From Paraburkholderia sp. PGU19 (GTDB lineage: Bacteria > Pseudomonadota > Gammaproteobacteria > Burkholderiales > Burkholderiaceae): a stretch of 64,000 bases of DNA. Position numbers and translations under genes: made by a program. The notes below the pieces were generated by a model that made no database searches, was not told where the DNA came from, and saw only the letters and a program-made list of their open reading frames with translations. The stretch spans positions 1,674,001-1,738,000 of the forward strand of contig NZ_AP023179.1 in NCBI RefSeq assembly GCF_013426915.1. Direction: 5' to 3'. Of this stretch, positions 50,496 through 59,800 are shown in pieces (positions within the stretch are counted from its first letter, which is position 1; each line of letters starts with the position of its first letter).

Positions 50496-53045
50496 ATGCC
50501 AATCATCAAACGACCGCAATCTTCCAGCTCCTCAGGGCATTCAGGCCGCGAGCCTTCTTTCGGCAGCAACGACAACCCGAGTCGCGATTACCGTTACGCG
50601 CAGCGCGAAGAAGACGATCGCGATGAGCGCGGGCGCGGTGCCCGTTCAGGCGGCTCGGGTCGCTCGATAGGCGGCACGATCGCGTTGTGGTTCGCCGGAC
50701 TGTTCGCGACTCTCGCGGTGGTCGGCGCGCTGATCATCGGCTATGCGCTCGTCGTGATGGGGCCGCAACTGCCGTCGCTCGATGCGCTCACCGACTACCG
50801 CCCGAAAGTGCCGCTGCGCATCTATACGGCGGACCACGTGCTGATCGGCGAATTCGGCGAGGAGCGCCGCAGTCTGGTGCGCTTCCAGGACATTCCCGAC
50901 GTGCAGAAGAAGGCCGTGCTCGCGATCGAGGACTATCGCTTCTACGAGCATGGCGGCGTCGATTTCATCGGCATCCTGCGTGCGGGTTTCGCGGACCTCG
51001 CGCATGGCGGCTCGTCGCAGGGCGCGAGCACGATCACGATGCAGGTCGCGCGCAACTTCTTCCTGTCGAGCGAGAAAACGTACACGCGCAAGATCTATGA
51101 AATGCTGCTCGCGTACAAGATCGAGCGCGCGCTCACGAAAGACCAGATTCTCGAGCTGTACATGAACCAGATCTATCTGGGCGAGCGCGCCTATGGCTTC
51201 GCGGCCGCGGCGCGCGTGTACTTCGGCAAGGATCTGAAGGACATCACGCTTGCTCAGGCAGCGATGCTCGCGGGGCTGCCGAAGGCGCCGTCCGCGTACA
51301 ACCCGGTCGTCAATCCGAAGCGCGCGAAGATTCGCCAGGAGTACATCCTGAAGCGGATGCTCGATCTGAACTACATCACGCAAGACCAGTACAACCAGGC
51401 CATCAAGGAAGAGATCCACACGAAGACGGCGGGCAACGAATACAGCGTGCACGCCGAGTACATCGCGGAGATGGTCCGCCAGATGATGTACGCGCAGTAC
51501 AAGGACGAGACCTACACGCGCGGTCTGAACGTCACGACGACGATCGATTCCGCGGATCAGGAAGCCGCCTATCTTGCCGTGCGCAAGGGCGTGATGGACT
51601 ACGAGCGCCGTCACGGCTATCGCGGACCGGAAGGTTTCGTCGAGTTGCCGGCTGCCGGCGACGAGCGCGACGAAGCCATCGAAGACGCGCTGAACGATCA
51701 CCCTGACAACGGCGAGATCATTGCGGCCGTCGTGACGTCGGTGACGCCGAAGGAAGTGAAGGCGCAATTGCTCGACGGCACGCAGGCGAGCGTGACGGGC
51801 GACGGCTTGCGTTTCGCGGCGGGCGCGCTGTCGGCGCGCGCGGCGCAGGCGCAACGCATCCGGCCGGGTTCGATCGTGCGCCTGATCGCCGATGCGAACG
51901 GCAACTGGCAGATCACGCAGTTGCCGCAAGTGGAGGGCGCGCTGGTGTCGATGACGCCGCAGGACGGTGCGATCCGCGCGCTGGTCGGCGGCTTCGACTT
52001 CAACAAGAACAAGTTCAACCACGTGACGCAGGCATGGCGTCAGCCGGGTTCGAGCTTCAAGCCGTTCATCTATTCGGCGGCGCTCGACAAGGGCCTCGGA
52101 CCGGCGACGATCATCAACGATGCGCCGCTGTACTTCCCGCCGAGCGCGCCGGGCGGCGACGCGTGGGAGCCGAAGGACGACGATCAGCCGGATGGTCCGA
52201 TGCCGATGCGTCTCGCGCTGCAGAAGTCGAAGAACCTCGTGTCGATCCGCATCCTGTCGTATATCGGCACGAAGTACGCGCAGGATTTCGTCACGCAGCG
52301 CTTCGGCTTCGATGCCGACAAGACGCCGCCGTATCTGCCCATGGCGCTTGGCGCTGGTCTGGTGACGCCGCTGCAATCGGCGGGTGCGTATAGCGTGTTC
52401 GCGAACGGCGGCTATCGGATCAATCCGTATCTGATTGGGGAAGTCGACGACGCGCACGGCCAGCCGCTGTCACGTGCGCAGCCGCTGACGGCGGGCAAGG
52501 ATGCACCGCGCACGCTGGAGCCGCGCAACGCGTACATCATGAACAGCCTGCTGCATTCGGTGGCGACGGCGGGCACGGGCGCGGGCACGAACGTGCTGCA
52601 TCGTAACGACCTGCAAGGCAAGACGGGTACGACAAACGATGCGAAGGACGGCTGGTTCGCCGGCTATCAGCAGTCGCTCGTGGCGGTTGCGTGGATGGGT
52701 TATGACCAGCCGAAGTCGCTCGGTAGCCGCGAATTTGGTGCGCAACTGGCGTTGCCGATCTGGGTCGAGTATATGCAGCGTGCGCTGCGTGGTGTGCCGC
52801 AGGTTGAGCCTGAGATGCCTCAGGGTGTCACTTCCGTCGATGGCGAGTTGTTCTACGCGGATATGACGCCGGGGAGTGGGTTTGTCGCGAGTATTGGGAT
52901 GGATTCGGCGAATCCGCTCGCTAGTGGTGGGGATGCTGTCGGCACGGTTGGGCCAGCGGGGATGACGCCGCCAGCGCCGCCGCCGAATGTCACTTCGACT
53001 GAGAAGAAGCAGATTATGGATTTGTTTGAGTCGAATAAGCCGTAA
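50496..53045 (+). CDS. mrcA: Penicillin-binding protein 1A (bifunctional transglycosylase/transpeptidase)
   Basis: 849 residues. Polar N-terminal tail, one membrane helix (about 57-85), then the GT51 domain with catalytic Glu in AIEDYRFYEHGGVDF (about 144) and QGASTITMQVARNF. A PBP1A-type insert precedes the transpeptidase with SxxK in PGSSFKPFIY (about 518), SKN (about 578) and KTGTT (about 708). It polymerises and cross-links peptidoglycan at the inner membrane. The gene is complete. It is not beside the usual pil cluster, so it could be a second paralogue in this genome. Confidence 0.93.
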   Translation: MPIIKRPQSSSSSGHSGREPSFGSNDNPSRDYRYAQREEDDRDERGRGARSGGSGRSIGGTIALWFAGLFATLAVVGALIIGYALVVMGPQLPSLDALTDYRPKVPLRIYTADHVLIGEFGEERRSLVRFQDIPDVQKKAVLAIEDYRFYEHGGVDFIGILRAGFADLAHGGSSQGASTITMQVARNFFLSSEKTYTRKIYEMLLAYKIERALTKDQILELYMNQIYLGERAYGFAAAARVYFGKDLKDITLAQAAMLAGLPKAPSAYNPVVNPKRAKIRQEYILKRMLDLNYITQDQYNQAIKEEIHTKTAGNEYSVHAEYIAEMVRQMMYAQYKDETYTRGLNVTTTIDSADQEAAYLAVRKGVMDYERRHGYRGPEGFVELPAAGDERDEAIEDALNDHPDNGEIIAAVVTSVTPKEVKAQLLDGTQASVTGDGLRFAAGALSARAAQAQRIRPGSIVRLIADANGNWQITQLPQVEGALVSMTPQDGAIRALVGGFDFNKNKFNHVTQAWRQPGSSFKPFIYSAALDKGLGPATIINDAPLYFPPSAPGGDAWEPKDDDQPDGPMPMRLALQKSKNLVSIRILSYIGTKYAQDFVTQRFGFDADKTPPYLPMALGAGLVTPLQSAGAYSVFANGGYRINPYLIGEVDDAHGQPLSRAQPLTAGKDAPRTLEPRNAYIMNSLLHSVATAGTGAGTNVLHRNDLQGKTGTTNDAKDGWFAGYQQSLVAVAWMGYDQPKSLGSREFGAQLALPIWVEYMQRALRGVPQVEPEMPQGVTSVDGELFYADMTPGSGFVASIGMDSANPLASGGDAVGTVGPAGMTPPAPPPNVTSTEKKQIMDLFESNKP

Positions 53046-53081
53046 GGGTTTGGGGTTGGGTTTGGTTTGCGGTGCGCGGGC

Positions 53082-53395
53082 GGTTTGGTTGGTTTGCTTT
53101 GCTTAGCGCTGGCATCCGCGATTTGTTATCTAGCTTCACGCGTCGCCCCTGTGCGGGGCGGCACCTACTTTTCTTTGCCGCCGCAAAGAAAAGTAGGCAA
53201 AAGAAAGCGGCTCACACCGCCAGCGCTAGTTCCTGCCTGAGGGCCCCCAGCCGGTCCCACACTTCACACGGCAACCACGTGACTCATGCTTGTTGCCAAC
53301 GCTCTGATCTGACGCATCACCCGCTTCACACACCCGCGTCGCCACATGCCGTGCCAGACATTCCACGGCCGCCCAGGTGGCAAACTGTGTGTAGG
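53082..53395 (-). repeat. Dispersed palindromic element, copy A (inverted relative to copy B)
   Basis: Near-identical in blocks, reverse-complemented, to 54957-55270. Contains a 15-bp perfect hairpin (53164-53197, cctacttttctttgc stem, 4-base loop), a gcccc/ggggc hairpin (53145-53159), and a ggcaac/gttgcc stem with a 16-base loop (53270-53297). Conserved blocks are separated by diverged blocks of almost equal length. No credible protein. Looks like a structured RNA or MITE-like element. Confidence 0.85.
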
Positions 53396-53445
53396 CCGTA
53401 GTACCCCACACGCCTCACTCCGGACCGATAGCGCCCGCGTTCCAC

Positions 53446-53456
53446 CCTGTAAGAGC
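53446..53456 (+). repeat. Left target-site duplication of the IS
   Basis: cctgtaagagc, repeated exactly at 54924-54934. Confidence 0.92.
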
Positions 53457-54923
53457 CAGCCCTTTCAAGGTCTTGATCAAGATGTCCCGCCTTTGGCGCG
53501 TTTAAGCAGGCGAGCGGTACTGTGATGGGCGCGGGCTACCGCACCTTCGACATAGGGTGCGGGTTTGCGGGTCTTGGGGCCACGCGTGCGTGTGCGCACC
53601 TGAATCGGGTCGACGCAGCGGGCCAGCTCGAGCAGTTTGCCGGCAATCACGTCGGGCGTGGCATCGCTCCAGTGCGACCATTCATTTGGCGGCAGCGCGA
53701 TGAGCATGCCCTCATACTGGCTGCGAATCTGCACGGCGAGGTAGTACGTCGAGACGTCCGGCGGCGCTGCACCTGTTTCATCGGCGGCAGCATGCGCAGC
53801 TTCAACACTGCGCTTGAGCGTGGCCAGCACGTTGTACGCCAGCACCGCGACGGTAAAGCCCAGCAGCGCGGCACGTGGATGACCCAAGGTGCGGATCTCG
53901 CTGTGCAGGACCGACTCGAGTCGCTGGAACATGCCCTCGATACGCCAGCGCTTGCGGTACAGCCGGGCAATCTCGTGTGCGCCCACCGCGGCAGGCAGGT
54001 TGCTCCACAACAGAATCACGGTATCGCCTGCATCAGTCGGCTTGTCCAGCGTCAGCTCGATGCGACGCCAGACGAAGCCAGCCTTCAGGTCAATGCGTTG
54101 CTCTCGCACCTGACCTGTCTCGATACGTGCACCGTCCACCCATGGCCCACTGCTGGCAAGAGCCGGGCTGTTGCGGCCGTGTTCGCGCACGATGAAGCAG
54201 GCCTGTGCCTGATGCCAGCCCTGCAGGATGGTCCCGGTGCAGAAGTTCCGGTCAGCCAGCCACAATTCGCCCGCGCCGGCACATTCAATCAGCGGGGCCA
54301 TGGCCGAGCGCTCCTGCGCGTGCGCATCCTCGATGGCGACCAGATCTGTGACCAGACCCAGATCCGGCTCGTAGACCACCAGCGCGTGCCCCGGCAACGC
54401 CGCGCCACGCTGCTCGCGCAACGCCGCCAGCCGTTTCTCACTGGCCGGCAGGTGATTGCCATCAAGCACCCGCACACGCCAGCCGGGCAGGCTGGGCTGG
54501 CATGGCAACGCCGCCAGCACCGGCCCCAGACGCTGTGCGCTGCCCTGTACCAGGGCACGCAGGATCGCGGGTTCGGTGCGGTTGACCTTCTCGTAGAGCG
54601 CGGCCAGCGACACCGGCAGGGGCTTCGTCTGTGTCGCTGCAGCGTGCAGCGACGGACTCAGTCCCAGCGACACCAGCGTCATCAGTTCAACCACCGTCGA
54701 GAACAGCAATTCACGTGGATATTGCCGCTGCCGGTGCTCGGCGAACACCTCGTCGATCCATTGCGGCGCGATGGCTCTCTGCAGTGCCAGGCGTGCCATC
54801 ACGCATACCGGTGCCTGCTGCTCGAAACGCTTCATCACCTCGTCGAACATCCCTTCGTACCCGTCGTTCCTTAACATCTCGCCAGGTTACCAGGTTTGCA
54901 GCGCAAAGACCTTGAAAGGGCTG
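53457..54923 (-). mobile_element. IS4-family insertion sequence, complete
   Basis: 1467 bases bounded by 18-bp perfect terminal inverted repeats (cagcccTttcaaggtctt at the left end, its complement at the right) and an 11-bp direct duplication of the target. One transposase gene fills it. Perfect ends and duplication suggest recent insertion. It landed in the 83-base spacer between two inverted copies of a dispersed element. Confidence 0.95.
53477..54877 (-). CDS. IS4-family DDE transposase
   Basis: 466 residues. First Asp in VRVLDGNHLPASE (about residue 139), second in WLADRNFCTGTI (about 207), and the IS4 YREK-type motif as YRKRWRIEGMFQRLE (about 306) carrying the catalytic Glu. Cuts the element out by a hairpin intermediate and joins it to a staggered target. 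The frame is intact with no frameshift, so the element may be active. Confidence 0.95.
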   Translation of the reverse strand: MLRNDGYEGMFDEVMKRFEQQAPVCVMARLALQRAIAPQWIDEVFAEHRQRQYPRELLFSTVVELMTLVSLGLSPSLHAAATQTKPLPVSLAALYEKVNRTEPAILRALVQGSAQRLGPVLAALPCQPSLPGWRVRVLDGNHLPASEKRLAALREQRGAALPGHALVVYEPDLGLVTDLVAIEDAHAQERSAMAPLIECAGAGELWLADRNFCTGTILQGWHQAQACFIVREHGRNSPALASSGPWVDGARIETGQVREQRIDLKAGFVWRRIELTLDKPTDAGDTVILLWSNLPAAVGAHEIARLYRKRWRIEGMFQRLESVLHSEIRTLGHPRAALLGFTVAVLAYNVLATLKRSVEAAHAAADETGAAPPDVSTYYLAVQIRSQYEGMLIALPPNEWSHWSDATPDVIAGKLLELARCVDPIQVRTRTRGPKTRKPAPYVEGAVARAHHSTARLLKRAKGGTS

Positions 54924-54934
54924 CCTGTAAGAGC
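54924..54934 (+). repeat. Right target-site duplication of the IS
   Basis: cctgtaagagc, identical to 53446-53456. Confidence 0.92.
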
Positions 54935-54956
54935 GCCACGCTATATGTTGCGACAA

Positions 54957-55270
54957 CCTACACACAGTTTGCCACCTGGGCGGCACATACCATTCGCAGC
55001 CGCTTGCCCGCGCAAATGCATTCGAAGCGGGTGAGGCGTTTATTCAAAGCGTTGGCAACACGCGCCAACAGAGTCGTTGCCGGGTGAAGCGTAAGACCCT
55101 TTGGGGGCCCTCAGGCAAGAAGAAATGTTGGCGGTGTTAGCCGCTTTCTTTTGCCTACTTTTCTTTGCGGCGGCAAAGAAAAGTAGGTGCCGCCCCGCAC
55201 AGGGGCAACGCGTGAAGCTAGATAACAAATCGCGGATGCCAGCGCGAAGCAAACCAAACCAACCAAAACC
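54957..55270 (+). repeat. Dispersed palindromic element, copy B
   Basis: Read on this strand: cctacacacagtttgccacc, a diverged block, gcgttggcaac with a 16-base loop closing at gttgcc (55054-55081), tgggggccctcaggca, a diverged block, then the 34-base hairpin (55154-55187) and tgaagctagataacaaatcg. The distance from the first to the last conserved block is 289 bases, against 290 in copy A. Confidence 0.85.
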
Positions 55271-55412: not shown

Positions 55413-56888
55413 TCACCGCGCAACAGGCGCCGAAGAAGCCACCTCATCCGGCGGAGGATTCCCCATCGCCTGAAACAACGCTGCCGTATCGTTCAGCCTT
55501 GCCCCCGTAAACCGAATCTCATCGAGCCGCGCATTGCGATACTGCTGCTCGCTCGCCCGCGACGCCGTGACAGGCACGGCCCCCAGCCGATACCGCGCCG
55601 CCGTCTCCTCAAACGACCTTTGCGCCGCCCGAGCAGCAACATTCGCGGCATCGAGCGATTGCGCATCGTGCTCGAGCGCGGCGAGCGTATCCGCGACATT
55701 CTGGAACGCGGCCAGCACGGTCTGCTTGTACTGCGACGTCGCAGCTTCATACGAAGCAACAGCCGCGCGCCGCTGCGCAAACAGCGCACCGCCATGAAAG
55801 ATCGGCTGCGTGAGCGATGCGCCGATGCTCCAGATCGCTCCCGCGCCCGACAGCGCAACTGGCCAGCTAAACCCGCCTTGTCCCATCGATGCGCTCAGCG
55901 TCAAGCTCGGAAACATCTGCGCAGTCGCGACACCGACATCGGCGGCAGCGGCCTTGAGCGTCGCATCGGCGGCCTGAATATCGGGGCGTGCCTTTAGCAG
56001 ATCGGATGGCACGGAGACGGGCACCTGTTCCGGCACATGCAGTGATGCAAGATCGAGCGCAGGTGGCGCCTCGTCCGGCGTACGTCCCAGCAGCACGGCA
56101 AGCGCATGCCGCGTCGTCAGCAACTGCTGGCGCGCCGGCGGCAGACTCGCGGCAAGCGACGCCGCGCTCTGCTGCGCGCTCAGCAGATCGCTGTGCGACA
56201 CCGCGCCGAGATCGTAGCGGCGCTGCGTGTCGCTTGCCTGGTCGTTGGAGAGCGCGACGAGCCGCTCGGTGGTCTGCACCTGCGCGTCGAGCATCGCCGC
56301 CGAAATCGCCGCGGCCACGATGTTCGCAGCAAGCGCGCGCCGCGCCGCATCGAACTGATACGCCTGCACGTTCACACGCGACGCCAGCGCCGCATTCGCG
56401 AGCCGCGATGCGCCGAAAATGTCGAACGTGTACTGCGCCTGCAACTGCCCGACGAACGTGTTGTACAGAAACGTGTTCGGCCCGATCACGGGAATCGCGA
56501 GCGCGCGCTGGCGAGCCGCCTGGCCGCCGGCGTCGATGGTCGGCAACATGTTGCTGCCGATCTGCGCGCGCAACTGCTCGCGCGCGGCCTTGAGACTCTT
56601 GTCGGCGGCGTCGAGCGTCGGGCTGTTGCGCAGGCCTTCGTCGACGAGCGCGTTCAGTTGATCCGATTCGAACGTGCGCCACCATTGCGGCACCGCCTTC
56701 GCGCCAACCACGAACTGCTGCGTGACGCCCTGCGCGGGAACGGTTTGCACCGGTTGCGGATCGGCGCCGTAGTGCGCGGGTTCTGGCATCGCGGGCGGAT
56801 TGCCGTTCGGGCCGAACGAACAGGCCGCTGCGATCACGCAAGAAACGGCGACGGCAAAAGACGTACGGGTCATCGAAACAGGGCTCAT
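55413..56888 (-). CDS. RND efflux outer membrane factor (NodT/OprM type lipoprotein)
   Basis: 491 residues. Signal with lipobox IAAAC near residue 22, then the two-fold repeated alpha-barrel/beta-barrel domain of OMF channels (LRNSPTLDAADKSLKAAREQ and the later DLLKARPDIQAADATLKAAA). Forms the exit duct of the tripartite pump. The start codon lies one base after the RND pump stop, the third gene of the operon. Confidence 0.93.
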   Translation of the reverse strand: MSPVSMTRTSFAVAVSCVIAAACSFGPNGNPPAMPEPAHYGADPQPVQTVPAQGVTQQFVVGAKAVPQWWRTFESDQLNALVDEGLRNSPTLDAADKSLKAAREQLRAQIGSNMLPTIDAGGQAARQRALAIPVIGPNTFLYNTFVGQLQAQYTFDIFGASRLANAALASRVNVQAYQFDAARRALAANIVAAAISAAMLDAQVQTTERLVALSNDQASDTQRRYDLGAVSHSDLLSAQQSAASLAASLPPARQQLLTTRHALAVLLGRTPDEAPPALDLASLHVPEQVPVSVPSDLLKARPDIQAADATLKAAAADVGVATAQMFPSLTLSASMGQGGFSWPVALSGAGAIWSIGASLTQPIFHGGALFAQRRAAVASYEAATSQYKQTVLAAFQNVADTLAALEHDAQSLDAANVAARAAQRSFEETAARYRLGAVPVTASRASEQQYRNARLDEIRFTGARLNDTAALFQAMGNPPPDEVASSAPVAR

Positions 56889-56889
56889 G

Positions 56890-59800
56890 TCAGTTCCCCG
56901 AATGGTCGGACGGTGCGGGGCGCGGATCGCGCTCGTCGCCGCGCACGCGGAACCACGCGGCATACAGCGCGGGCAGATAGAACAGCGTGAGCACCGTCGC
57001 GCTCGTGATGCCGCCCATCAGCGCCGTCGCCATCGGGCCGAAGAAGTTGGAGCGCAACAGCGGAATCAGCGCGAGCACGGCGGCCGCCGCCGTCAATGTG
57101 ATGGGCCGGAAACGCCGCACCGTCGCGCCGACGATCGCATCGAAGCGCTTGTGCCCCTGCGCGATATCCTGTTCGATCTGATCGACGAGAATCACCGAGT
57201 TGCGCATGATGATGCCGAACATCGCAATCACGCCGAGCATCGCGACGAAGCCGAACGGCTTGCCGAACAGCAGCAAGGTCGCGACCACGCCGATCAGGCC
57301 GAGCGGCGCAGTCAACACGACCATCAGCACGCGCGCGAAGCTCTGCAACTGGATCATCAGCAACACCAGCACGGCGATGATCATGATCGGCATCTGCGCA
57401 TTGATCGACGTCTGTCCCTTCGCGCTTTCCTCGACCGAGCCGCCGATCTCGATCCGGTAGCCCACAGGCAGCGTCGAACGAATCTGCGCGAGCTGTTTGT
57501 CGACGGCATGCGTGACGTCGATACCTTGCGCGTTGCCGCGCACGTCGGACTGCACGGTGATCGTCGGTTGGCGGTCGCGTTCCCAGATCACGCCGTATTC
57601 GAGGTCGTCGCGCATGCGCCCGAGCGCGCCGAGCGGCACTGAGCCGTTGGGTGTGGGCATCGCGAGCGTCAGCAGTTGCGACGGGTCGACGCGCTCGTTC
57701 TTCGGCGCGCGCAGATCGACGCTGATCAGTTTGTCGCGCTCGCGGTACTGCGTGACCGTGTAGCCCGACAGCGTCATCGCCAGAAAGCTCGATACGTCCG
57801 CTGACGTCACGCCCAGTTCTCGCGCCTTCTTCTGGTCGACCTCAAAGCGCACCGAGCGCTCGGCGGGCTCGTCCCAGTCGAACTGCACGTTCGCCGTGCC
57901 CGGATTCCCGCGCATCGTCGCGGCCACTTTTTCGGCAATCGAGCGCACCGTGGCGATGTCGTCGCCGCTCACGCGGAACTGCACGGGATAACCGACAGGC
58001 GGCCCGTTTTCGAGGCGCGACAGACGCGTGCGGATCGCAGGGAAGTCGCTGCGCAGTTTCGGTTCGAGCCAACGCGCGAGCTTCTCGCGATCTTCGACGG
58101 ACTTCGCGGTGATCACGAACTGCGCGAAGTTCGGCTGCTGCAATTGCTGGTCGAGGGGGAGATAGAAACGCGGTGCGCCCGAGCCGACGAAGTTCACCGA
58201 ATGATCGATTTCGGGCCGGCCTTCAAGGGCTTTTTCGATGCGCTGCGCCTGGCGCAAGGTCGCCTGGAACGAGGCGCCTTCGAGCAGTCGCACATCGACG
58301 AGCAGTTCGGGCCGGTCGGAACTCGGGAAGAACTGCTGTGGCACGAGCGCAAATCCCGCTAGCGACACGACGAACAGAATCACGGTAATCGCGAGCACGA
58401 CGAAACGCCGCTCGATGCACCACGTGATCCAGCCCGTCAAACGCCGATAGAAACGCGTTTCATAGATGTCGTGCTCGTGATCCTCGGGTTCGTGCGCCTG
58501 CCGTTTGCGCTCGGGCAACAGGTGATAGCCGAGCATCGGAATCAGCACGACGGCCGCGAGCCACGACGCGATCAGCGCAATCGCCGACACTTCGAAAATC
58601 GAGCGCGTGTATTCGCCCGTGCTCGACTTGGCGAGCGCGATGGGCAGAAAGCCGGACACGGTGACGAGCGTGCCCGTCAGCATCGGGAACGCCGTGCTCG
58701 TATAGGCGTAAGCGGCGGCGCGTGTGCGGTTCCAGCCCTGTTCGAGTTTCACGGCCATCATTTCGACGGCGATGATCGCGTCGTCGACGAGCAGACCGAG
58801 CGCGAGCACCAGCGTACCCAGCGACACCTTGTGCAGCCCGATATCGAACAGGTACATGCACAGCGCCGTGACGGCGAGCACGACGGGAATCGAGATCACG
58901 ACCACCATCCCCGTGCGCACGCCGAGCGACACGAGACTCACCACCAGCACGATCGCCACCGCTTCCGCGACAGCTTCGAGGAAGTCGTCGACGGAACGCG
59001 CGACCGCGTGCGGCATGCTCGATACTTCGACCAGCTTCAGCCCCGCGGGCAGATGCGCCTGCAACTCCTTCATCCTCTCGTCGAGCGACTTGCCGAGCTG
59101 GATCACGTCACCGCCCGTCTGCATCGTCACACCGATGCCAAGCACGGGCTTGCCCTGGAAACGCATCTGCGTGACGGGCGGATCGTCGTAGCCGCGTTTG
59201 ATGGTCGCGATATCGCCGAGCCGGAACGAGCGGCCGTTGATGCGGATCAGCGTGTCGGCGAGCGCGTTCAGGTCTTTGAATTGTCCTGTGGGACGCACGA
59301 ACACGCGGTCGTCATAGGTCGTCAGCGTGCCGGACGGCGAGACACTGTTCTGCGAGTTGATCGCCTGTGCGAGTTGATTCGGCGAAATGCCCAGGCGCGT
59401 CAGCTGCGTATTCGTAATCTCGACATAGATGTGCTGGTCGGGATCGCCGAAATAGTCGACCTTGCCGACGCCCGGTACGCGCAACAGCACCGTGCGCAAT
59501 TCGTCTGCGTAGTCGTGCAATTGCGCTGAAGAAAAGCCGTCGCCTTCGAGTGTGTAGATGTTCGTGTAGACGTCGCCGAACTCGTCGTTGAAGAACGGCC
59601 CCCGAATGCCTTGCGGTAGCGTCTGCGCGATATCACCGACCTTCTTGCGCACCTGATACCAGGTTTCCGGCACGTCCTTGACGGGTGCCGAGTCCTTCAT
59701 CGTGAAGAAGATCAGCGATTCGCCGGGGCGCGAGTAGCTGCGCAGAAAATCGATGGCGGGCGTTTCCTGCAACTTGCGGCCGATACGGTCGGTGACTTCT

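Follow-up and report, generated by a model that had tools for sequence, protein, structure and literature searches.

The genome of Paraburkholderia sp. PGU19 contains a genome-wide family of intergenic palindromes, in which two inverted copies of a near-fixed, covarying core stand head to head behind gene ends, and in which the sequence around the cores is reshuffled among copies by gene conversion. One member lies in a stretch of 64,000 nucleotides of this genome (hereafter the window), where the first-pass annotation had described two inverted copies of a hairpin-rich, block-conserved element; the finding is real, and larger than was first noted. Dispersed repeats of bacteria are usually taken as fossils of separate transposition events, whereas more than 100 copies here act as a freely recombining population, whose sites are kept between species while their sequence is swapped in tracts from tens to hundreds of bases long. 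Should this be borne out, the family would provide a natural system in which to measure ectopic gene conversion in bacteria and to test its seeding by palindromes, as well as a way to ask about the role, behind gene ends, of a covarying core that 10 of 25 sampled genera possess. Full-text searching, whose coverage excludes most subscription journals, returned no earlier description of the element.

Anatomy of the Element in the Window

Positions 53082-55270 hold one head-to-head pair of inverted arms that is split by an insertion sequence (IS) (Table 1). The arms are complementary at 91% over an outer stretch of 195 nt (53084-53278 / 55073-55267), at 83% over an intermediate stretch of 40 nt (53288-53327 / 55024-55063) and at 100% over the 28-nt inner motif. 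The 34-base hairpin at 53164-53197, previously called exact, does recur in the other arm, at 94% identity and hence not quite exactly. The IS is bordered by an 11-base duplication (53446-53456 / 54924-54934), and a count of lengths without it leaves a spacer of 83 bases between the arms, the same distance as had been given for the pair before insertion. Beyond the outer edge of the arm, the flanks are degenerate and G/T-rich. The element lies between convergent genes, since both neighbours (ends at 53045 and 55413) finish towards it. An open frame of 109 aa (53072-53401), with KKSRQKK-like text, runs across the hairpin and could be annotated as a hypothetical protein; a Pfam search with it gave no match, and the coding reading is probably spurious.

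Table 1. Features of the element and its neighbours, in window positions
Feature	Position	Strand	Remark
Left neighbour (flank), bifunctional penicillin-binding protein gene	50496..53045	+	3' end towards element; PF00912, PF00905, PF17092
Left arm, B type: outer linker, core, inner blocks, inner motif	53082..53395	+	outer edge diffuse
Left core: S0 (GCCCC/GGGGC), S1 (15-bp hairpin), purine linker, GCGGC segment complementary to S1 loop region	53140..53216	+	covariance model R1, 107.7 bits (G000:C1:1727140-1727216)
Left inner motif, 28 nt	53368..53395	+	perfect inverted copy at 54957-54984
Left piece of asymmetric middle	53396..53456	+	final 11 bases are the left IS target duplication
Insertion sequence within the middle, foreign to the element	53457..54923	-	DDE_Tnp_1 transposase 53477-54877, minus strand
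Right piece of middle	54924..54956	+	initial 11 bases are the right IS target duplication
Right arm, A type, inverted	54957..55270	-	
Right core	55135..55211	-	hairpin 55154-55187; ends set by symmetry with left core; core pattern match at G000:C1:1729173-1729196, minus
Right neighbour (flank), outer membrane efflux protein gene	55413..56963	-	3' end towards element; PF02321

A Family of Paired Elements in the Genome and in Relatives

The inner motif, with up to three mismatches, occurs 135 + 133 times in the 11.25-Mb genome (0 and 1 for the reversed-pattern control), and the core pattern 139 + 136 times (0 and 0 for its control), so that chance does not account for the repeat. The 268 inner motifs correspond to approximately 134 elements of about 0.7 kb each, which by arithmetic make up roughly 0.8% of the genome. 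Those reachable among the matches listed, 83 distinct elements of the ~134, were extracted, and all 83 are paired head to head, as had been seen for the window copies. Their middle measures 83 bp in 53 elements, 84 bp in 21 and 81-93 bp in seven, and the last two are split by the same IS. A single arm as the unit was rejected, as the three unpaired motifs encountered (L001, L033, L034) are pieces of two IS-split pairs. At locus L092 (G000:C2:1206264-1206443), the outer modules of the arm (query positions 5-80) are present twice more in tandem beside the element.

With up to two mismatches, the inner motif was found in 1 of 200 family genomes drawn, namely PGU19 itself. Among 144 genomes of the genus, whole-element relatives occur at 84-90% identity in four and at ~69-78% in ten more; some match is present in 128 of the 144 and, among the matches listed, consists mostly of the core alone. 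In the plasmid collection, Paraburkholderia caribensis, P. largidicola and P. sp. 22B1P cover 96-99% of the query at 82-86%, P. phymatum covers 81% of it at 71.6%, and records from P. terrae, Caballeronia and Burkholderia match smaller parts. A covariance model of S0 and S1 only, applied with strict filters to a sample of 120 family genomes, detected the core in 47 of them and in 10 of 25 genera, often as inverted pairs. A phage origin was rejected, since the phage collection gave no match to the element and the viral contigs lacked the exact hairpin pattern.

Arm Types, Conserved Blocks and Variable Blocks

When arms are sorted by the asymmetric middle, they fall into two consensus types, A and B, which are alike from the outer part through the core and unlike in the inner blocks, where identity is 0.750 for A-A, 0.771 for B-B and 0.637 for A-B. 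The inner blocks of the two window copies differ since each arm type has a consensus of its own there. The earlier statement that the blocks between the conserved ones differ fully does not stand: identity is 91% over the outer 195 nt, and the blocks that do differ represent fixed A-arm and B-arm types plus segregating alleles. Core identity is 99.1-99.3% whichever arm is considered (150 usable arms of 166), and that of the inner motif is 92-95%; diversity is 0.00-0.01 in the core versus 0.2-0.4 in other blocks. The 16-base loop reported for both window copies, between GGCAAC and GTTGCC, is general, being 16 nt long in 149 of the 155 readable loops of the 166 arms, and its sequences form discrete allele families; 9 of 18 readable 16-nt loops in the sister species G312 are identical to one in PGU19.

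The two outer parts of one copy are slightly more alike than those of different copies (p 0.0005-0.001). Linkage between the A arm and the B arm does not exceed the background (r2 0.022 vs 0.018), and a long stem kept by compensatory change between the arms was rejected on this ground. Among variable sites, 430 of 18,145 pairs passed a loose two-sided pairing filter that was run without a control, and the most strongly linked pairs fall inside the 16-nt loop, where they form no clear helix. The view taken in the first-pass annotation, that fixed lengths and conserved stems are features of a structured element and not of neutral decay, holds for the constrained lengths and for the core, which covaries across genera; the variable blocks, which may yet be structured, lend it no such support.

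The Core and Its Proposed Fold

The covariance model of the core was built on S0 and S1 alone, the pairing between the loop and the downstream segment being left out of it. Among 82 unique cores, GCNGC is present at the S1 loop in 64 and absent in 17 (one was unparsed), and the downstream segment is the exact complement of the loop in 53 of the 82, as GCCGC/GCGGC (23), GCGGC/GCCGC (17) or GCTGC/GCAGC (13); in the remaining GCNGC cores this segment is GCGGG (9) or was unread (2). The central loop/downstream pair in a 38-row alignment is C-G in 22 rows, G-C in 11, U-A in 1 and other in 4; in alignment A1 the S2 counts are lowered, because its short-linker rows are not in register. In addition, 78 of 81 readable cores have a purine linker that reads as the parallel complement of the pyrimidine strand of the stem, where shuffling gives 38.8 on average and 51 at most. 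The linker/stem classes are TTTTCTTT/AAAAGAAA (47 cores), TTTCTTT/AAAGAAA (28 cores, symmetric, so that parallel and antiparallel cannot be told apart), and two rare asymmetric ones, TTCTCTTT/AAGAGAAA and TCTTCTTT/AGAAGAAA, which rest on 2 and 1 unique cores, respectively. Thus, covariation, which the first-pass annotation had proposed to look for in the stems, is found across genera in the core, both between loop and downstream segment and between linker and stem, with the qualification that core sequences share ancestry and the counts are not independent events.

These sequence relations fit a hairpin with a pseudoknot, perhaps with a third strand. An antiparallel purine third strand needs a mirror relation such as the one between linker and stem, and a parallel linker/stem relation is more easily explained in DNA than in RNA.

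Short-Tract Exchange Among Copies

Linkage was analyzed in 62 of the 81 unsplit elements, those with both hairpins readable, at 191 variable sites. The r2 falls from 0.151 at 1-3 bp to 0.078 at 6-12 bp and 0.029 at 25-50 bp, beyond which linkage is nearly absent (0.020-0.021 at 100-300 bp and 0.016-0.017 beyond 300 bp; independence expects 0.016). An old star-like burst could give the same decay, and for this reason the comparison of strains matters. In P. largidicola PGU16, one of four elements differs from those of F2 and 22B1P at 155-158 of ~785 columns, mostly in the left half and the middle, between flanks that are 98.8-99.8% identical. This element shares 139 identical bases across its middle with a neighbouring element of the same strain 6.2 kb off, and the match shrinks to 85 bases in F2 and 22B1P, because it includes private differences of the PGU16 neighbour; no donor was found for the remainder of the replaced sequence in PGU16. 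The other three P. largidicola loci show 11-21 differing columns between F2 and PGU16 and 0-10 between F2 and 22B1P, so that no large conversion separates F2 from PGU16 at three of the four.

Similar tracts are found in P. caribensis. In strain 852011, one element has 50 bases identical to its neighbour 2 kb off, at a place where strain MWAP64 has a different allele and shares 12, and a third tract, this one in MWAP64, differs from the neighbour's copies at 3 of 78 positions and from its own ortholog at 14, which is suggestive only; the flanks of a further strain, MBA4, are too divergent to inform. The true donors could be other, unseen copies of the neighbour's type. The diversity of the family comes mainly from short-tract gene conversion among copies, which the first-pass annotation, partly supported in its interpretation, had not considered.

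Shared Sites and Unshared Sequences

Of 60 candidate loci, 22 were traced into relatives. The element is present at 21 of these 22 sites in the sister species G312; in G262 at least one core is present at 8 of 21 traced sites, five of which bear the marks of at least two hairpin pairs, and in G254 a core is present at 0 of 20. Orthologous elements of PGU19 and G312 are 83.0% alike (19 loci), against 82.1% for non-orthologous ones and 81.4% and 83.7% for paralogous ones, and the true ortholog ranks first among 21 at only 2 of 19 loci. A comparison by parts (21 loci; 19 for the middle) gave, for orthologous versus non-orthologous elements, 94.1/53.0 for the coding end, 71.4/59.0 for the flank (p 0.0002), 85.2/83.6 for the outer part (p 0.034), 98.3/98.3 for the core, 76.2/74.2 for the inner block (p 0.07), 97.3/97.4 for the inner motif and 74.6/66.6 for the middle (p 0.004, partly due to shared orientation). 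Some memory of orthology thus persists in flank, outer part and middle, which counts against the conversion reading. Orientation is reversed at 4 of 21 loci between PGU19 and G312. Because elements at shared sites swap short tracts with other copies, the sequence proper to a locus is lost, as at times is its orientation.

The interior as a whole is also replaceable, as in other species the same cores enclose palindromic interiors of another kind. Many cores of G262, among the matches listed, are paired 406-426 bp apart, and four pairs that were read (411-414 bp) have an interior unlike the window family, with a long inverted repeat and an asymmetric centre; pairs in G315 (396-426 bp) and G299 (581 and 603 bp) likewise have an inverted-repeat interior unlike it. 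The window-family interior is found in G254 (531 and 533 bp) and in one G262 pair (535 bp). In genus g12, which is probably Burkholderia, judging from the Rfam match described below, 2-4 core matches are listed per genome, and the four pairs read (L284, L285, L286, L287) share one location, next to the same pair of genes, with a centre of variable length that brings their span to 660-2,644 bp. A gene-bearing form was not found at these four loci, whose longest interiors offer no more than a single weak frame (210 aa, score 9, L284). Four core pairs of another interior family on G262:C1 (105553-107270, 217360-219077, 434453-436166, 2414962-2416679) stand 1,690-1,694 bp apart and not ~410 bp; the one that was opened has an IS481-type transposase inside.

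Position Behind Genes and Transcription Terminators

The mapping of flanking genes, which had been suggested earlier, showed that the elements lie mostly behind genes. Within 500 bp of elements there are 102 gene 3' ends (median 71 bp) and 37 5' ends (median 176 bp; p 3e-8), according to a home-made codon-usage caller that misses genes. The 60 elements with both neighbours within 500 bp comprise 30 in convergent, 27 in co-directional and 3 in divergent gaps, as compared with 3, 23 and 20 element-free gaps of at least 150 bp (Fisher 7e-7), which were drawn from the same loci and are an approximate control only.

At the window locus, of mrcA type, a strong intrinsic terminator follows the stop codon in all 8 of the nearest genomes that lack the element (-24.8 to -28.6 kcal/mol), and the six element-bearing genomes have no canonical one; this may be a single event. 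Among nine more distant element-free genomes, four have a terminator at -26 or below. S1 is not followed by a T run, and S0 plus a later T-rich tract scored -21.5 and -22.0 kcal/mol in G312 and G286, two of the six element-bearing genomes. Terminator replacement as a general rule was not borne out by ten loci at which an element-free relative has a terminator: PGU19 has retained one at 4 and has none at 6, and two element-free relatives agree with each other at 6 of 9, no clear difference from the element-bearing genome. As the comparison over ten loci is mixed, a role of the element at gene 3' ends is plausible, not established.

Proposed Mechanism and Competing Explanations

We picture the element as two inverted, near-invariant structured cores within arms of fixed A or B type, joined by a conserved asymmetric middle of ~83 bp. 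Once single-stranded, the core would fold as the S1 hairpin, with the loop pairing to the downstream GCNGC segment as a pseudoknot and the purine linker turning back to lie along the stem as a third strand. The palindrome would provoke breaks or fork stalls that are mended from other copies, giving conversion and inversion, and the element would be tolerated, or useful, as a two-way 3'-end barrier. Both the function of the element and the driver of conversion we infer, and we hold the chances to be about even that the family is a dispersed intergenic head-to-head palindrome of ~0.7 kb, reshuffled by conversion, with this fold, these breaks and this barrier role. A more far-reaching version, which we consider rather unlikely, would make it a class of self-homogenising elements, in which a cellular machine recognises the single-strand core fold (a hairpin with a loop pseudoknot and an antiparallel purine third strand) and drives both the spread behind gene ends and the short-tract conversion among more than 100 copies, the interior being freely exchanged over evolution.

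A non-autonomous transposon of the MITE or REPIN type, in which a transposase that acts on single-stranded hairpins recognises the cores as ends, copies arise by transposition and conversion is incidental, would account for the high copy number and strict inverted pairing, for the occasional extra outer modules beside elements, and for site sets that differ in more distant relatives (G262 and G254), on which account a mobile element is plausible. REPINs are extragenic, high-copy pairs of inverted hairpin repeats, in which the pair is the unit and which are tied to RAYT genes (PMC3116915). The present element shares with them the inverted hairpin pair as unit, seen in 83 of 83 extracted elements, the extragenic location and the copy number, and differs from that description in its size of ~0.7 kb, its interiors that vary from species to species and its conversion-shuffled copies (PMC3116915). 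It works like a REPIN-type intergenic palindromic repeat, yet stands apart from RAYT genes: no core (up to two mismatches) lies in the loci of the genome's three genes with a PF01797 match (Y1/RAYT type), 1.5 kb on each side included, so that a RAYT partner was rejected, and no transposase tied to the element was found. There was also no clean empty site, the lone candidate (locus 18) being non-syntenic, no target duplication of the element was recognised in flanks inspected by eye, and whole-element copying would not give unlinked blocks; transposition as the main explanation is therefore somewhat unlikely in our estimate. A plain degenerate repeat, left by an old burst and in neutral decay since then, with inner sites near saturation and orthologs no closer than paralogs, would likewise show low distant linkage and high inner-block diversity if the burst was star-like. 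It is at odds with the contrast in diversity between the core and other blocks, the fixed loop length, the 16-nt alleles exactly common to two species and the core covariation, and it is largely refuted by tracts replaced between strains ~99% alike in the flanks, which makes it highly improbable.

The element may instead act as RNA, as a 3' UTR element, a two-way terminator or a small RNA under selection on transcripts, with a catalogued Rfam family as its described end. The location behind genes, the conserved core that covaries across genera and the terminators of the window locus agree with this. So does Rfam RF02421 (Bp1_684), the Burkholderia sRNA Bp1_Cand684_SIPHT, a single sRNA of 114 nt for which an RT-PCR signal is reported (PMC3521395). 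It scores 43.0 and 38.5 bits against the window copy, below the gathering score of 44, and exceeds this threshold at both pair ends of g12 loci L287 and L284 (56.6-60.7 bits), at one match each in L246 (46.2) and L294 (45.1), and not in L243 and L174. The Rfam family covers the outer half of the core, on the opposite strand, plus flank, and overlaps the element only at its outer ends; the available part of its description presents a single sRNA, with no paired architecture, interior or amplification (PMC3521395). The overlap suggests that the catalogued sRNA belongs to a larger, paired element, of which it makes up one end. Selection as an RNA has against it the terminators over ten loci, which show no clear difference, the lack of a T run behind S1 and the parallel linker/stem relation, and we regard it as unlikely.

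Insertion Sequences in the Elements

REP sequences are extragenic palindromes that serve as specific insertion sites for particular IS (PMC1525189). The present elements resemble them as extragenic palindromes hit by particular IS, and differ in that several transposase types have their own fixed points in one larger element (PMC1525189). Among the inserts examined, a DDE_Tnp_IS66-type transposase recurs at the S1 apex, HTH_38/rve-type and DDE_Tnp_1/DUF772-type transposases at the S1 base, and a DDE_3-type transposase near consensus position 171/528. Loci with further IS at recurrent points are L012, L013, L050 and L088; L041, L078, L071 and L086; L030 and L089; and L022 and L072. The window IS (53457-54923; L155-L163), which we take to be of the IS4 family, has eight copies in the PGU19 genome, five at the same point of the element middle, one in an arm and two elsewhere; with 6 of 8 copies within these elements, it is target-specific.
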